Source of the DNA: Promethearchaeota archaeon Loki_b31
Lineage (GTDB): Archaea; Asgardarchaeota; Lokiarchaeia; Sigyniarchaeales; SOKP01
Assembly (NCBI GenBank): GCA_005222975.1
Contig: NJBI01000005.1
Span: forward strand, 1 to 64,000
Direction: 5' to 3'
Length of the DNA: 64,000 bases
Position numbers and translations under genes: made by a program. Position 1 is the stretch's first letter. Each line of letters opens with the position of its first letter. Under the pieces are notes generated by a model, which did no database searches, was not told the DNA's origin, and saw only the letters and a program-made list of their open reading frames with translations. Positions 20,491-29,441 of this stretch are shown piece by piece.

Positions 20491-21258
20491 ATGCAAAACA
20501 AAATTATTATAGAAAAGATAAGAGATTTCTTAGAAAGGGAACGAAAGCACGGAAAGCTCTTGGTCTTTTATCGTTCAGACTCGAATCACACTGCTATTTT
20601 AGATAATTTTGGGATTAAAGTTGAATTGAATAAATTTAAAGAAATCATCCTTGAAGAAGAGACGGGTATAGAACTTGGTGGGATGAAAAAAAAATCCTTC
20701 TCAATAATATTTCCAATTGAAGATGCCCAACTAATCGATACTGGAAAAATAAGTTTATTAGGTCCAGAAATTGATAAATGTTTGGATAAAAATATAGATT
20801 TTGGGATGATGATTTTAATTGGAGTCGAGAACAGCACAGAGAAGGATATAAATGAGTTAAGGCAATTGAGTTTTATCTCTAATGGCATGGAAGGGTTTTC
20901 CATTCGAACTATTCCTCGCAGGTTTTGGTGTAGATTAAGTACATCAACCTTGCAGAAAGGATTTTCATTCGAATTTTTAGGAAATGCTATTATTTCTCTA
21001 TACAAACAAAAATTTAAAGGTTTAGTTAAAACTATAGAAGTTATATTAATCAGTTCATATCCCGATTCTATTAAAAATTTCATTACGCTATCGTCAGAAA
21101 TTACAGATAGGTTTAAAGAAAAATGGAGAAAAAAAATAGAAGAATGGAAAAAGAGGATTGATTGCGATTACGATTGGGGTTGTGAAATATGCCCTTATCA
21201 AGAAGAATGTTTAGATATTAAGCAAGTATTAGTTTTAAGAGAGGAGATTGAGAAATAA
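20491..21258 (+). CDS. stand-alone protein resembling the middle domain of acetyl-CoA synthase (AcsB/CdhC), with C-terminal Cys motif
   Basis: ELGGMKKKSFSIIFPIEDAQLIDTGKISLLGPEID...FWCRLSTSTLQKGFSFEFLGNAI...KQKFKGLVKTIEV resembles ELGG...F...DGK...GPDID...WLRVSKDAVAKGFRFKNYGE...KEEFPAIVDRVQV of ACS; tail CDYDWGCEICPYQEEC. Confidence 0.6.
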   Translation: MQNKIIIEKIRDFLERERKHGKLLVFYRSDSNHTAILDNFGIKVELNKFKEIILEEETGIELGGMKKKSFSIIFPIEDAQLIDTGKISLLGPEIDKCLDKNIDFGMMILIGVENSTEKDINELRQLSFISNGMEGFSIRTIPRRFWCRLSTSTLQKGFSFEFLGNAIISLYKQKFKGLVKTIEVILISSYPDSIKNFITLSSEITDRFKEKWRKKIEEWKKRIDCDYDWGCEICPYQEECLDIKQVLVLREEIEK

Positions 21259-21281: not shown

Positions 21282-22058
21282 ATGAAAAACCAGAGAAAAA
21301 AGCCACTTATAGTTGCTATTGTCGGAAAAGGAGGGGTTGGAAAAACAATTGTAACAACTCTTATTGCTAAAGCAATTTCAATCTCTTATAATTTCAAATT
21401 ATTACTGATTGATGCAGACCCTACTCATCCGCATCTTAGTAAAATGGTTAATTTACTTCCTGAGAAAAGTCTCGAGATGGTTAGAGCCGAATTAATTGAT
21501 AAAACAATAAATAAAAAAAAAGATATCCAAACGCTAGCAGAGAACATAGATTTTGAGGTTTATAGCGCTATTAAGGAAAGTAAAGATTTTAGTCTGTTTT
21601 CAATTGGTCAGCCCGAAGGTCCAGGTTGTTTCTGTCCCTCGAATGCTCTACTACGAAAAGTTATAGAATCAATTTCTAGTGATTTTGACATCGTTTTGAT
21701 AGATTGTGAAGCGGGACTTGAACAAATTAACCGAATGGTAATTAAATCTGTTGATATTATCTTAATTATTTCAGATATATCTCTAAGGAGTATAGAAACT
21801 GCTAAATCAATTAAAAAAAGCGCTAAAAAATTTACAAACTATAGAAAAATAGGCGTTATAATAAATAGAGTTAAAGGTGATATTACTAATATTCTGGATA
21901 AGCTTAGAGAATACGATTTACCTTTAATTGCATTAATTCCTGAAGATGAAATTCTAACTAAATTTGATTTAGAAGGTAAGGCTATAATTGATGTTCCAGA
22001 AGATTCTAAAAGTTTTCAAAAAATAACAAATAATATAGAAAAAATACTAGAAATCTGA
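21282..22058 (+). CDS. CooC/MinD-like P-loop ATPase (nickel-insertion type)
   Basis: GKGGVGKTIVTTLIAKA, LLIDADPTHPHL, PGCFCPSNALLR, DIVLIDCEAGLEQINR. Confidence 0.85.
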   Translation: MKNQRKKPLIVAIVGKGGVGKTIVTTLIAKAISISYNFKLLLIDADPTHPHLSKMVNLLPEKSLEMVRAELIDKTINKKKDIQTLAENIDFEVYSAIKESKDFSLFSIGQPEGPGCFCPSNALLRKVIESISSDFDIVLIDCEAGLEQINRMVIKSVDIILIISDISLRSIETAKSIKKSAKKFTNYRKIGVIINRVKGDITNILDKLREYDLPLIALIPEDEILTKFDLEGKAIIDVPEDSKSFQKITNNIEKILEI

Positions 22059-22269: not shown

Positions 22270-23859
22270 ATGAAAATGTTGCGACAAATATATATCTTAA
22301 AGGATGGGAATATAATATACGAGAAAGACTTTGGTAAAGTCTTGTCTTCTGAAAATTTTCAAAGTATTTATCAAGAAGTTGAGGCAGAGATATCTCGTGG
22401 TCTTTTAAACGATTTTGGAAGCTCTAATTTTTTTAAACATAGAATTATATATACCGTAGACAGAGCTTTAAAATTAATCTTTATATTCATAATTGGATTC
22501 AATGATGATATGGAAACTGTAAAACTAGAATTAAATAAATTAAAGAATGATTTTTTAGAATCATTTGGTGATATTCTCGACAATTTAGATCCATCGCTCT
22601 TCGAAATATTTAACCCATTAATAGAATCAATTCATAAAAACATAAAAACTAAAATCTCGTTGGTAGGATTTTCTGGAGTAGGGAAAACAACAATTACTAA
22701 ATTAATACGTAATGAAGAGGTTCCCGAAACGCACATTCCTACAATAACAGGTAAAGTTTCCACTATTAAAATTGGAAAGTTAACCTTCCATTTATGGGAT
22801 TTTGCTGGTCAAGAACAATTTAGCTATTTATGGAACGATTTTATCCTGGGGAGCGATGCTGTCCTCTTAATTACAAACTCAACTTTAGAAAATGTAGAGA
22901 AAAGCAAATACTTCGTTGAATTAATAAAAGAACAGACACCAAACGCGCATTCCGCTGCAATTGCAAATAAGCAAGACTTAGATGGGGCGTTAAGCGTTGA
23001 AAAGATCGAAGAAATACTCGGAATCAAGACATATTCGATGGTTGCAATTGAACCCAATAATCGAGATAAAATGGTCCAAATCGTTGCAGATATCTTAGAA
23101 ATGAATATGGAAGAATCAACGCTATTGAAACCTTTATTTGAAAGAGATCAATTAATTCAATTAGCTAAAAAAAGCTTAGAAAACGGAGATATTGCTGAAA
23201 GTGCGAGTTATTTTGATAAAATCGCAGACTTATGTCTTGAATTGGGAGATGATGCTCTTTATAAAGAATTTTACCTAAAATCTGAAAAATTAAAACGATA
23301 TCTACCCGATATAACAAATCTTCAAGAATATCAAAACAATACCGATCTAAACGACTCTGACTCCGATGACGATGGACTGACTGATGGACAAGAAGTTAAT
23401 GCTTACTTTACTGATCCAAATGACCCCGATAGTGACAATGATGGAATGCCAGACGGATGGGAAGTAAATAACAGCTTAAACCCTAATGTTGACGACTCTG
23501 CAAACGACCCTGGTGGTGATAGGTTAACAAATCTTCAAGAATATCAAAATGATACCGATCCAAACGACTCTGACTCCGATGACGATGGACTGACTGATGG
23601 ACAAGAAGTTAATGCTTCCTTTACTGATCCGAATGACCCCGATAGTGACGATGTTGGAATGTCAGACGGATGGGAAGTAAATAACAGCTTAAACCCTAAT
23701 GTTGACGACTCTACAAATGACCCTGGTGGTGATAGGTTAACAAATCTTCAAGAATATCAAAATGATACCGATCCAAACGACTCTGACTCCGATGACGATG
23801 AACTGACTGATGGACAAGAAGTTAATGATTACTCTACTGATCCGAATGACTCTGGTTAA
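22270..23859 (+). CDS. longin-like domain + Arf-like GTPase + thrombospondin type-3-like calcium-binding repeats
   Basis: N-term RQIYILKDGNIIYEKDFG (longin/roadblock-like); GFSGVGKT, LWDFAGQEQF, NKQDL; C-term repeated DSDSDDDGLTDGQEVNAYFTDPNDPDSDNDGMPDGWEVNNSLNPNV. Confidence 0.8.
   Translation: MKMLRQIYILKDGNIIYEKDFGKVLSSENFQSIYQEVEAEISRGLLNDFGSSNFFKHRIIYTVDRALKLIFIFIIGFNDDMETVKLELNKLKNDFLESFGDILDNLDPSLFEIFNPLIESIHKNIKTKISLVGFSGVGKTTITKLIRNEEVPETHIPTITGKVSTIKIGKLTFHLWDFAGQEQFSYLWNDFILGSDAVLLITNSTLENVEKSKYFVELIKEQTPNAHSAAIANKQDLDGALSVEKIEEILGIKTYSMVAIEPNNRDKMVQIVADILEMNMEESTLLKPLFERDQLIQLAKKSLENGDIAESASYFDKIADLCLELGDDALYKEFYLKSEKLKRYLPDITNLQEYQNNTDLNDSDSDDDGLTDGQEVNAYFTDPNDPDSDNDGMPDGWEVNNSLNPNVDDSANDPGGDRLTNLQEYQNDTDPNDSDSDDDGLTDGQEVNASFTDPNDPDSDDVGMSDGWEVNNSLNPNVDDSTNDPGGDRLTNLQEYQNDTDPNDSDSDDDELTDGQEVNDYSTDPNDSG
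23313..23859 (+). repeat. in-frame 213-bp (71-aa) tandem repeat, two full units plus partial third
   Basis: aacaaatcttcaagaatatcaaaa begins at 23313, 23526 and 23739; units near-identical at nucleotide level. Confidence 0.9.
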
Positions 23860-23955: not shown

Positions 23956-25059
23956 TTATTCTTTAGATTTTGTTTTAAGCTTGTAAGGACGATATGCATC
24001 TTCAAGCACATTTAGATACTCAATTAAAACCGGCTCTGATTTTGATTTCACGTCGTATTGATGTAGTATCGTACTTAACATATATCTAGGATATACAAGG
24101 GAAATATGTAAGTCAGAAAGCAATGCATAATATTCAGTTCCATTTTCTCTTTGGAATACGTGTAAAATTTTATTATCCCATAACTTCTTAATTCCGCCGT
24201 CTATATCATCTACTCCTTTTTTTCTAAGTTTTTCCAAAGTATTCCTAGTTACTATTGCGATTCTCATTAATTTTAGTATCTCATATAACTGTGGATCAGT
24301 GAGAATATCTACTAATTTCAAATTGTCATCTTCAGAAGGTCGGTAATTTTGAAAGAATCTTCTAACTTCAGAGTTGTACGCTTCGACTAAAGGTTCAGGA
24401 AGTCCTCGCCCTACAGGATCGCTCAATATTTTGAGAGGTGGTCTTCTAATCATGAATATGTCGTTTATGAAAAATAGTAGCTCAGAAGGCATTCCTTTTA
24501 CAGAAGCTTCTTTTACGATATCTTTTTTGATCAGTTCAATTAAGATCGCATCAATATCAAAAAAGCCTCTACGGTATTTATCTTTTAACCACACTTTTAG
24601 TTCTGATTTGGAAACGACTCCTTCGTCTCTTAATCTGTTTATGAGTAATCTATTTATTTCATCTTGAAAAGTTAAAGCGAGAGCTTGTTCATTGTTTAGA
24701 TGAGGGTAAGCAGACAAACGTTGGAACAAAAAGGGAATCATTTCGAGATATGCTCGATTTTCAAAATTCTGAAGGATTATCCGTGATATATCCGCCAATC
24801 CGCCTTCGTAAAGGTCTGGGTCGTCGTCCAAGTTTAAAATTAAAATGAGATATAACGGTCTTTCACCTCCAGTATAGTATGACGCAATATTCAAATGACC
24901 CACCATTAAGCTTATCATTCCGGGGTCTCCCGTATATTCATGAGCGGCATAGATTTGCATTAAGGTCTCATCCGATATGATAATTTCTTCGGGGTACTTT
25001 GTAATAATATCCGTACTTACTTTAGGGTCCCATCTCATTATGATAAATCCAATTGGCAT
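23956..25059 (-). CDS. cytosolic protein of unknown function, possible longin-like N-terminus and winged-helix segments
   Basis: GFIIMRWDPKVSTDIITKYPEE N-terminus; starts overlapping the stop of the upstream 1460-aa gene. Confidence 0.5.
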   Translation of the reverse strand: MPIGFIIMRWDPKVSTDIITKYPEEIIISDETLMQIYAAHEYTGDPGMISLMVGHLNIASYYTGGERPLYLILILNLDDDPDLYEGGLADISRIILQNFENRAYLEMIPFLFQRLSAYPHLNNEQALALTFQDEINRLLINRLRDEGVVSKSELKVWLKDKYRRGFFDIDAILIELIKKDIVKEASVKGMPSELLFFINDIFMIRRPPLKILSDPVGRGLPEPLVEAYNSEVRRFFQNYRPSEDDNLKLVDILTDPQLYEILKLMRIAIVTRNTLEKLRKKGVDDIDGGIKKLWDNKILHVFQRENGTEYYALLSDLHISLVYPRYMLSTILHQYDVKSKSEPVLIEYLNVLEDAYRPYKLKTKSKE

Positions 25060-28000
25060 TAGTCTCTATCGCCTCCTTTTTTGGATTTTTTCCCTTTCAA
25101 TGGAATAGTCTTTAATTTCAAATCACGCGTACCTAATGTATCTTCAAGGGAAAGGTCTAAAGCTTTCCAATCTTCTCCGAATAATTTCAGCATCATTTGT
25201 TCCTTTGTTTTGATTGCATAAGATTCAGATATAGTTTTTTTTGATTTTATCGTACTTTTAACTTTCCTGATTTTTTTGACGAACTTTGGAATTCTCGCCT
25301 GCTGAATAACCCTATAAGTTATTAAACTTCCAGCAATGCCAACAATAGCGGCAGTAATTAAGATAAAGTAAAACACGGGCATGCCAGGAAATAGTTCTTC
25401 CATTTGTATGTTAATGACTATTCTAATTTCTTGAGATGTGAAATTTACTATTTGAACTCTTATTATTCCAGACAAGAGATTTGGTGCGAAAAAGGCTTCA
25501 ATTACTTCGGTTTCGAAAGTCAATGAATATATGCCAGGAGAAGTTTCGTTAAAATTGTATTCAGATCCTCCAATACTAAGGGTTACCGTAGCGTTTTCTA
25601 ACGGAATATTTCCTCTGGTTATATCTTGTAAATTTATTTCAAAACTTACGCTATCTCCATGAATTACATTAACTTGGTTTCCCACTAAATTTTCTACGCT
25701 TATCTCAACCTCAAATTCTCTTAAAACCATCTCTAAATTAATAAGGGCTGATTTTGTCTCATAGTTTTCTTTTTGTAATGTAACATATAAATAGTAAAAA
25801 CCGACTTGTTGATGTTCTGTGTTAAAGTCTAAAGTATAAGTTTTATCTTCGCCTTGTATTAGCGTTCCTGAACCGTCTCTACCTGGAATAATACCTCCAC
25901 TTTCATTTAATTCTTGCCAGATGTAAGTAGCAATTGTCAAATCCCCTAATATTTCCAGCGTATTAGCATCGCTATAAGTAAATATGAAATTGTGAGCATC
26001 CTGAACCCATACTTTTGGGTTTAGATATACTAATTCGCTTTGTCCGTTAAGATCAGTTTTTCTCTCAAGTATAGTAAGGTAAATCAAGAAATTAGATTGC
26101 GTAGTATAATTTTCAAATGAAGCTATAACATTAATAATTTTAAGTCCCGTACTTTGAGCATCTGAAGTGTTAATTGTAAATGTATAATACAAGTTATTTA
26201 AAGGGTCTGTAAATACATTAATAGGGTTAAGACCCATCCAAGTATAAGTTAAAGTAGCACCCATTAATGGGGTACCTGTTTCATCTATGAAATATTGTAA
26301 TGAAATATTTACAAGTTCATTGTAATATGCAGAAATAGACTGATCCAATATCTCTATACGCGTATCATAATCATGGACGCTGATATCTGTAGGTATGGTT
26401 TTCACCTTAACTATGAAATTCACCGAATTAGGTTCTGGATATCCAGGATATAAACCTTCTATTACCACGTAATATAATTTATAAGTACCTCCCGCAGATA
26501 ATCTATTAGAATTAATCGTTGCCGTAAAATTTCCAGGACCCGATCCTCCTCCCATAGTCTCAGTTATTAAATCGATCTCTGAGCCAATTTCTCTAAAATA
26601 TAATATACATGTCGCACTAGGATCAGTTATGGCATTCCATGTAATTCCGTTGTCTAGAGTATAATTAAAGATTACAGAATAGGTTAAATCTTCGCCCCAA
26701 AACACTTCTAATGTCCCAGAAGAATTAAAGAATGCTGTGTCATAATTTGTAATGTTTATTTCTTGTTTGAAAATTATGTTGAATGTAATTGATGCGGCTC
26801 CCAATAAAGTATAGTTATAAAACTGTACGCCGTTATTATCTGTTGGTCTCCATTGAATATCAGGATATAAGTATGTTACATTGAAATCTGCGTTAGTTAT
26901 GTTAACAATATCAATTGAAAAATTATATACTCTATCTTTAAAAAACCAAAATGGAATATCATTTATTTGACCATAAGCATATCCATTTCTATCAGAATCA
27001 GATATTAGGTTAGTTATAGCCTCTCCGGTTTGATTGTCAAAAACTTTAACCACCGCATCTACTGGTGCTCCTTCTGGAGATAACTCATTTATATTTATAA
27101 CTCTAATATTTAATCTTGATAAATGTGTTTTATTTAAGACGTTGCAAGTCTCGAGTAAATCAATCGTAATAAGCCCATTACACGTAGTATCATTTACGCC
27201 GTTTATCTCAATAAATAGTCCATAAACCTCGAACTTTTCGCTTTCTAACTTTAAATTCTCCACCTTAGGAATGTCAATTTCTATAAAGTCATGATCCTCG
27301 TTAAAACCATAACCATCTTCGAAATATATTAGGTTTTCATCGCCAGTACCTGTTGAGTTGTATTTATCTATATAATAAATCGAAACATTCGTTAGTTGAT
27401 TGTTCATTCCCGTTAATGTGATGTTGGCTTTAATAATATTCTTATTTCCAAAATCGGTTCTCGATCCATCAGTGTAAACGATTTCTTGTACAAGGTATCG
27501 TTCTTCACTCAAGGGTGCTAAGTTTGTATCATCAACTAATAGAGCGTGAGTTTTACTTTTTACGTTTTCATATTCGTCCCTGGTAATGTATGATTCGTTT
27601 AGCAGAAATGGACTTTCGCTATAATCATCGTTTGCGTAAAAAACTCTGAAGTAATAATCTGAAGTATTAAGCCATCGAAATGTTGCTTTTCCATTATTTT
27701 CCAGCGTTAAGGTATCTAATAAAACACCACCATTACTTTCATTGATTTCAATGTATCCATAATTTAAAGGAATTCCTTCCCAATCTGTGACCTCAAAATC
27801 TATCGTCCATAAATTTAAGGTGAAATCAAAACTGTACGATGTTCCATTAAGGATTTTTACCATACTTCCTACAAATTCTTCACGAGAATCTAAAGTGTAA
27901 TTTGCTGTAATATTATATTCGCCATTAAGTAACCCTGAGAAGAATACGGAACCATTGAAAGCAGATGTATATGCTGAATCAACAATATAACTTGGTGTAC

Positions 28001-29441
28001 CTTTAGCAGATTCGTTTAATACAAAAATTTCGGCATTAGGCACAATACGACCATCAACATCTCTAGCTGTAATCGTTAACTCAGATTTACGAGCTTGTAC
28101 TTCGTGAACTGAAGCAGTTAAAGTATAATTAAATCCTAGATCGTCAACTTGGAAAAACGCTGATTTTTCTTTGTATGATGCATCTGATTCGTCACCCCAT
28201 ACCCCAATTTCGAAAAATAATTCTTTACCCATATAACTACTTAAATCAATGTAAATATAACCAGTTAGTTCTCCGTCGCTAGAACCTGATACCGTATCTA
28301 CCGTAGTAGAATGATCAGGAAAATCAAATAATTCAGTAGTATCATCCCACTTTCTCGCTGGAACATTATAGTATGCGTTTCCATCGTAAGATTCGGCGTA
28401 ATTCTGGTAAGTAGGGCTTATGTCGTTATCATCGTGGTTATCAGGGTCTGGATCGTAATGAGGACTCGACCCATTTAGAATTTTTATAAAGTAACCATCT
28501 TTATGGATCGTATCTGGATTTACGTTTTTAGGTCTTTCAAATCTAAACGTTCTGATGTTTCTATATACCTTTAAGAAAATTCCACCACCTTCAACTATTG
28601 GAACGGTAAATGGATGAGAAAAGAGGGTTCCAGCATAATCGTGAACAATTGGATCCTCTGAAAATTCGTAAGCAGCGCCCCATTTATAAGCATATGTTCC
28701 TTGTGCAACTCTTTCTGCTCCTGTCGGATTATCAAGCAACTTATTTTCAAAATATTCATAACTAGTTGCTGAACTATTGGATGGATCAGGACTTGGATTA
28801 TTTTTGCCCTTTATCGTGTCAACTGGATTATGCGAGAATGTCCACCCGTCAGGTACAAATTTAACACTAGTATCAATATCTAATTCAAAATCACCATTTT
28901 TAACCCATCCAAAACTATCGTTTGGGTCTTTAGATTCCGCATTGACAGCTCCTGTATTTCCGAAATACATATAAGCGTCGATTTCAAACGTATTTTGAGA
29001 AATATTGGTGTCAAAAAAGACTATTGCATAATTTAAAGAAGGGTAATCCTTTACTACATAATATTTCCGTAAAACACCGTTCTCTACGATTCTTATGTCA
29101 TCTAAATCTGGCTGCATCTTTCCTGCTTGTACTAATTCGTCATAATTGAAAGAGAAACTAACGCCAAAATTGGTAAAATTTAGAGCGTATGGGTTGGTTA
29201 TGTTTACCAAACACCTATATTCAAAAGATGAATCCCACCACGATGCTTCACCAAAAATGCTTAGTTTAGGCGTATCAAAAGTATCATAACCAATTTCAGT
29301 GTCGTCATAATAGTTAGGGAGCGAAGGATCTGGGGATTGTTTCGATGAGAACAATGCCGGATTTATATAGACGCTAGACACTAAGAAAATCGAAATTAAA
29401 AGCAATTGTTTAAAGTATTTTGTGTTTATCAATTCTATCAA
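25059..29441 (-). CDS. 1460-aa single-pass surface protein (DUF2341-like N-terminal domain, Ig-like repeats, C-terminal TM and basic cytosolic tail)
   Basis: Signal-like N-terminus; WWDSSFEYRCLVNITNP...MYFGNTGAVNAES (DUF2341-like); TM VFYFILITAAIVGIAGSLITYRVI followed by Lys-rich tail. Confidence 0.7.
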   Translation of the reverse strand: MIELINTKYFKQLLLISIFLVSSVYINPALFSSKQSPDPSLPNYYDDTEIGYDTFDTPKLSIFGEASWWDSSFEYRCLVNITNPYALNFTNFGVSFSFNYDELVQAGKMQPDLDDIRIVENGVLRKYYVVKDYPSLNYAIVFFDTNISQNTFEIDAYMYFGNTGAVNAESKDPNDSFGWVKNGDFELDIDTSVKFVPDGWTFSHNPVDTIKGKNNPSPDPSNSSATSYEYFENKLLDNPTGAERVAQGTYAYKWGAAYEFSEDPIVHDYAGTLFSHPFTVPIVEGGGIFLKVYRNIRTFRFERPKNVNPDTIHKDGYFIKILNGSSPHYDPDPDNHDDNDISPTYQNYAESYDGNAYYNVPARKWDDTTELFDFPDHSTTVDTVSGSSDGELTGYIYIDLSSYMGKELFFEIGVWGDESDASYKEKSAFFQVDDLGFNYTLTASVHEVQARKSELTITARDVDGRIVPNAEIFVLNESAKGTPSYIVDSAYTSAFNGSVFFSGLLNGEYNITANYTLDSREEFVGSMVKILNGTSYSFDFTLNLWTIDFEVTDWEGIPLNYGYIEINESNGGVLLDTLTLENNGKATFRWLNTSDYYFRVFYANDDYSESPFLLNESYITRDEYENVKSKTHALLVDDTNLAPLSEERYLVQEIVYTDGSRTDFGNKNIIKANITLTGMNNQLTNVSIYYIDKYNSTGTGDENLIYFEDGYGFNEDHDFIEIDIPKVENLKLESEKFEVYGLFIEINGVNDTTCNGLITIDLLETCNVLNKTHLSRLNIRVININELSPEGAPVDAVVKVFDNQTGEAITNLISDSDRNGYAYGQINDIPFWFFKDRVYNFSIDIVNITNADFNVTYLYPDIQWRPTDNNGVQFYNYTLLGAASITFNIIFKQEINITNYDTAFFNSSGTLEVFWGEDLTYSVIFNYTLDNGITWNAITDPSATCILYFREIGSEIDLITETMGGGSGPGNFTATINSNRLSAGGTYKLYYVVIEGLYPGYPEPNSVNFIVKVKTIPTDISVHDYDTRIEILDQSISAYYNELVNISLQYFIDETGTPLMGATLTYTWMGLNPINVFTDPLNNLYYTFTINTSDAQSTGLKIINVIASFENYTTQSNFLIYLTILERKTDLNGQSELVYLNPKVWVQDAHNFIFTYSDANTLEILGDLTIATYIWQELNESGGIIPGRDGSGTLIQGEDKTYTLDFNTEHQQVGFYYLYVTLQKENYETKSALINLEMVLREFEVEISVENLVGNQVNVIHGDSVSFEINLQDITRGNIPLENATVTLSIGGSEYNFNETSPGIYSLTFETEVIEAFFAPNLLSGIIRVQIVNFTSQEIRIVINIQMEELFPGMPVFYFILITAAIVGIAGSLITYRVIQQARIPKFVKKIRKVKSTIKSKKTISESYAIKTKEQMMLKLFGEDWKALDLSLEDTLGTRDLKLKTIPLKGKKSKKGGDRD

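Follow-up and report, generated by a model that had tools for sequence, protein, structure and literature searches.

The open reading frame at positions 22,270-23,859 (+) of the analysed stretch of Loki_b31 DNA (64,000 nucleotides, referred to as the window) starts with ATG and runs through 529 codons in a single frame without internal stops, joining a small GTPase to a tail of thrombospondin type-3 (TSP3) repeats. This raises the question whether the locus encodes a calcium-responsive intracellular GTPase or the product of a recent fusion of two genes, both of which had been put forward in the original prediction on the basis of the letters alone.

The GTPase domain (residues 121-279; 22,630..23,106, +) was clearly recognised as Arf by Pfam (E=1.1e-20, 74 bits versus a cut-off of 22.3). 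A profile search against the PDB yielded Arf1 as top match (E=2e-18), with the Asgard ArfR structure 8OUM also among the matches, and Foldseek returned Arl1/Arf1 together with 8OUM and 8OUK. By sequence and by structure, the GTPase is nearest to Arf/Arl, and its G1 (GFSGVGKT), G3 (WDFAGQEQF) and G4 (NKQD) motifs, predicted to be intact, vary little or not at all across the alignment of 42 relatives. The longin-like N-terminus was likewise confirmed: residues 1-125 (22,270..22,644, +), modelled alone by AlphaFold2, gave a pLDDT of 90 and the order beta-beta-alpha-beta-beta-beta-alpha-alpha, with Sec22b, the VAMP7 longin and AP sigma subunits as Foldseek top matches (TMq about 0.5-0.72). Using the alignment of 42 relatives, most of residues 1-345 were modelled confidently. 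The GTPase is followed by a bundle of three helices (residues about 285-345; 23,122..23,304, +; helices at 287-304, 308-325 and 328-342), which, as judged from the model and the ends of the orthologues, is the usual end of the longin-Arf family. As expected from the earlier reading, no signal peptide or strong transmembrane (TM) segment is visible in the sequence or hydropathy windows of the 529-aa protein, and the single 19-residue window above 1.6 (1.83, residue 59) falls within predicted longin strands. Arf proper of the eukaryotic type carries an amphipathic, myristoylatable helix directly before the GTPase domain. Here, a longin domain precedes the GTPase and the protein starts with MKMLRQ, lacking Gly2, so that the name Arf-like is used rather than Arf. 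Since the Loki_b31 genome yields 62 Arf-family matches, a longin-Arf GTPase in itself is not unusual in this lokiarchaeal genome.

The tail (residues 346-529; 23,305..23,856, +) starts directly after '...KSEKLKRYLPD' and comprises 184 residues with a net charge of -54. Pfam assigned three stretches of it to TSP3_bac (E=5.6e-14, 52 bits versus a cut-off of 25), in the frame of the GTPase and without an internal stop, as had been proposed; with such E-values, neither the Arf nor the TSP3_bac domain is a chance match. A search of the tail against PDB sequences gave no match. The tail consists of degenerate bacterial-type TSP3 repeats: DxDxDGxxDG loops are still present at residues 364, 387 and 435, and calcium-loop positions are lost in DDVGM (458), DDDEL (506) and DPGGDR (413 and 484). 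At the DNA level, Tandem Repeats Finder detected a 213-bp tandem repeat (23,312..23,850, +) in 2.5 copies beginning at 23,312, 23,525 and 23,738, with 95% matches and no indels, a feature absent from the original prediction. AlphaFold2 produced no confident structure for residues 349-529 (pLDDT <50). This low score is not proof of disorder, because TSP3 repeats take up their fold around calcium and the tail region is represented in few relatives.

To place the junction among relatives, homologues were collected from other genomes. The GTPase has a homologue in all 58 genomes searched, and matches over about residues 1-345 occur in many relatives in other Lokiarchaeia, with up to 94% identity. 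The orthologues identified by synteny are 94% (CSMAG_2743, G022), 93% (HM4_B22, G004), 92% (33X4, G010), 84% (G007), 71% (G019) and 62% (G005) identical to the protein of the window genome (G000); the relatives at 92-94% are 'Candidatus Lokiarchaeota' MAGs. A TSP3 tail follows the same residue in Loki_b31, HM4_B22 and 33X4, each tail being different, and a query spanning the junction matched across it only in these three among 79 genomes of the order. Fifteen tail-less orthologues (those of G022, G007, G019, G005 and eleven others) end with a stop within 5 residues of position 345. Among the TSP3 open reading frames retrieved from relatives, many at loci cut at their ends, only that of the window has GTPase motifs. 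The recent fusion offered as an alternative in the original prediction is thus supported by the same in-frame junction in two independently assembled relatives. The prediction had also named an outcome that would speak against it, namely homologues all ending near residue 345 and no related genome carrying the fusion. That ending applies to every short-form orthologue outside the three-species group, but the fusion itself is present in HM4_B22 and 33X4.

The same comparison bears on an assembly or binning artefact, in which a misassembly joined the repeats to the GTPase. Near-identical repeats of 213 bp are indeed awkward for short-read assembly, and their copy number could be wrong. Nevertheless, such an artefact is scarcely credible, as the HM4_B22 and 33X4 MAGs have the same junction with different tails, the flanking genes are conserved on both sides, and a second copy of the tail DNA, a possible misjoin partner, was not found in this genome. 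Because three assemblies share one junction yet differ in their tails, a chimeric join is excluded, and an assembly join was rejected on this ground. The GTPase-TSP3 join is genuine and, among the genomes examined, confined to three closely related species.

Within this group, tail length, repeat order and stop position vary among all three carriers. The Loki_b31 tail has 2.5 repeat units and no Gln/Glu-rich stretch, that of 33X4 has a Glu-rich stretch followed by about one and a half units and terminates at a different stop, and in that of HM4_B22 the Gln/Glu-rich stretch is duplicated, a single unit follows, and the sequence then becomes A-rich and ends differently. A four-gene tree placed CSMAG_2743 outside the three carriers (bootstrap 97); single genes were weakly resolved, and one single-gene tree (cdhC-like) conflicts with the four-gene tree. 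This position favours a single gain, and the shortest history is one tail gain after the CSMAG_2743 split. Alternatively, the tail may possibly have been lost in CSMAG_2743 by deletion between CCTG repeats, since this genome retains the 3′ flank of the tailed genes (GGTTAATACGAAT.ATGAG), which is also found at the tail ends of Loki_b31 and 33X4. CCTG is found at both tail ends in 33X4, and the last codons of its gene (VNTNDE) weakly resemble a decayed repeat (shuffle P 0.015, post hoc); together with the shared flank, these features would fit a loss.

The GTPase core is under clear constraint, with pN/pS of 0.21-0.32 across species. For the shared TSP3 unit, pN/pS ranged from 0.30 to 1.2, and purifying selection was not significant in any comparison by neutral simulation (P 0.10-0.82; low power, with 6-11 differences each). 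Within the window, one half-unit is present in two complete copies, which differ by four nonsynonymous and zero synonymous changes. The shared unit retains most DxDxDG positions in HM4_B22 and 33X4.

Where the tail came from was addressed by searching for related repeats. No other copy of the tail and no donor gene was found in Loki_b31 by protein and DNA search (genome 92% complete), and a TSP3_bac family search of this genome gave three matches in all, with no donor gene among them. Within the genus, the nearest TSP3 repeats are 51-53% identical and belong to large proteins that contain a caspase-like domain; matches from other genera rise to 59-68% identity. Three such loci, L168 (G020:C59), L170 (G007:C74) and L169 (G022:C64), combine a caspase-like part (SGHGG / CNSGG, recognised by eye without a family search) with a TSP3 spacer, a TM-like segment and a C-terminal zinc ribbon. 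Donor-like TSP3 proteins have hydrophobic N-termini or a TM-like segment following the repeats, and six TSP3 proteins of relatives have a signal or strong TM-like segment, whereas the GTPase encoded in the window has neither. In lokiarchaeal surface-type proteins with TSP3_bac (PF18884), DxDxDGLxDGxE alternates with DGWEVNNxLNP / LTNLxEYQ units as in the window tail. There, however, the repeats separate an extracellular-type domain from a TM segment, while those of the window follow a cytosolic-type GTPase without a TM segment. Since the nearest repeats belong to surface-type proteins, the tail appears to be a fragment of the extracellular kind, carried by a protein without a visible export route.

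An addition at this place is not unique to the fusion. In the main paralogue (54-58% identical), the same helix is followed by about 220-430 residues of low-complexity, proline-rich sequence with a coiled coil at the terminus, which indicates that the C-terminus of the longin-Arf GTPase tolerates additions. At paralogue loci including L016, L018, L019 and L027, the last part of the extension is a conserved segment resembling a coiled coil (MxLDxDMKELTGEIT..EEL).

The observed architecture, the junction in three genomes, its absence elsewhere and the repeat dynamics are probably best explained by a recent capture of a TSP3 spacer fragment of a surface protein, which would now be an acidic, dispensable appendage on a cytosolic longin-Arf GTPase. 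The gene product would be cytosolic and belong to a lokiarchaeal family of longin-Arf-like GTPases whose members normally end at about residue 345. In the common ancestor of the three very closely related species, or a little before it if the fourth has lost the tail, a TSP3-coding fragment of the kind forming the extracellular spacer of lokiarchaeal membrane proteins would have been joined in frame after the last helix, and later tandem-repeat change may have expanded, contracted and decayed it. Judging from the intact motifs and from what is known of the family, the core presumably works as a GTP/GDP switch as in tail-less relatives, and might be regulated or localised through the longin domain and helical bundle that it carries, probably in concert with the products of the conserved neighbouring genes. 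The tail most likely forms a flexible acidic chain which the protein can do without, although the chain may bind some calcium. The frame that stays open in three species is a counterpoint to a dispensable tail, albeit a weak one, because random change at this divergence produces a stop in only 15-27% of cases (132-bp unit).

A role for the tail can nevertheless be conceived in several ways. If intact TSP3 loops bound calcium and the folded tail altered localisation or nucleotide cycling, the protein would be a calcium-responsive GTPase, similar to Miro though unrelated to it. The remaining loops and the in-frame tail in three species would agree with this, but we regard it as unlikely, as the tail is absent from all other orthologues found, including the 94% sister, loop positions are lost in the window copy, significant purifying selection on the tail is lacking, and TSP3 repeats are normally extracellular, where calcium is high; none of the observations calls for a calcium sensor. 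Calcium responsiveness as a conserved property, as the original prediction would have it, is not supported by the same data, the module being variable and its loops decayed, present in three species and missing from the 15 short-form orthologues. That the three sister species gained from a surface protein a working cytosolic calcium-binding tail, and thereby a calcium-sensing switch, seems very unlikely to us; if true, Asgard archaea would have arrived independently at small-GTPase signalling under calcium control. The acidic tail might instead have a calcium-independent role in solubility, spacing or as an electrostatic binding region, comparable to the proline-rich extension of the paralogue. 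The presence of that long extension after the same helix, the strongly negative charge, and the Gln/Glu-rich stretches in HM4_B22 and 33X4 are consistent with such a role, which we still consider unlikely, as orthologues without any tail are the rule and the window tail does not end in a conserved segment as the paralogue extension does.

The GTPase gene also has conserved surroundings. Downstream lie the gene of a conserved 367-aa protein (p367; 23,956..25,059, -), convergent with the short-form GTPase, and that of a large surface-type protein (p1460; 25,059..29,441, -), for which the open reading frame list and reading of the sequence indicate a hydrophobic N-terminus and a C-terminal TM-like segment. 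The GTPase gene followed by convergent p367 and p1460 was found at 16 of 17 near orthologue loci (L088-L103 and L149; exception L093), whereas the proline-rich paralogue is mostly without these neighbours. The p367 protein matched nothing in Pfam or NCBIfam and gave no significant match against the PDB. The link to p367 and p1460 is better conserved than the tail and offers a more promising route to the function of the GTPase; a conserved neighbourhood with a membrane-anchored surface-type protein provides testable partners for an Asgard small GTPase. At L155 and L161, a p367-p1460 pair, differently arranged, is located close to another longin-Arf gene. On the other side of the GTPase gene, positions 20,491-21,258 (+) encode a 255-aa protein with a partial match to the CO dehydrogenase/acetyl-CoA synthase beta subunit (CdhC, 55 bits), adjoined by a MinD/NifH-like ATPase (21,282-22,058); beyond the nearest species, neither is present at the orthologous locus.

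The locus offers a clean natural case of a domain fusion caught within one species group: a sister lacking the tail is 94% identical and the junction is almost exact, so that gain, loss and repeat change can be traced step by step. It also illustrates that an odd domain arrangement in a single Asgard genome is not necessarily a functional innovation. In the open-licence literature, we found neither a TSP3 tail on a small GTPase nor relevant work on TSP3 in archaea. Five longins fused to Arf-like GTPases have been described for Lokiarchaeum (PMC4917890, Box 1) and GTPase-longin architectures for MK-D1 (PMC10933270). As in the window protein, the fusions treated there combine an N-terminal longin with an Arf-like GTPase with intact motifs, of cytosolic type; unlike it, they are presented in Box 1 and the corresponding part of PMC10933270 without mention of a TSP3-repeat tail. 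As far as these sources go, the longin-Arf fusion was already known in Lokiarchaeum and the tail alone is new. The Asgard ArfR structures 8OUM (GerdArfR1) and 8OUK (HodArfR1) share the Arf-type fold of the window GTPase, but their chains of about 170-178 residues leave no room for a longin domain or a comparable tail. A calcium-binding GTPase is known in Miro, in which EF-hands lie between two GTPase domains and a membrane anchor is present. Both proteins combine a GTPase with a calcium-binding motif in one chain, putative in the window protein as read from its sequence; Miro does so with EF-hands, two GTPase domains and a membrane anchor, the window protein with TSP3 repeats.
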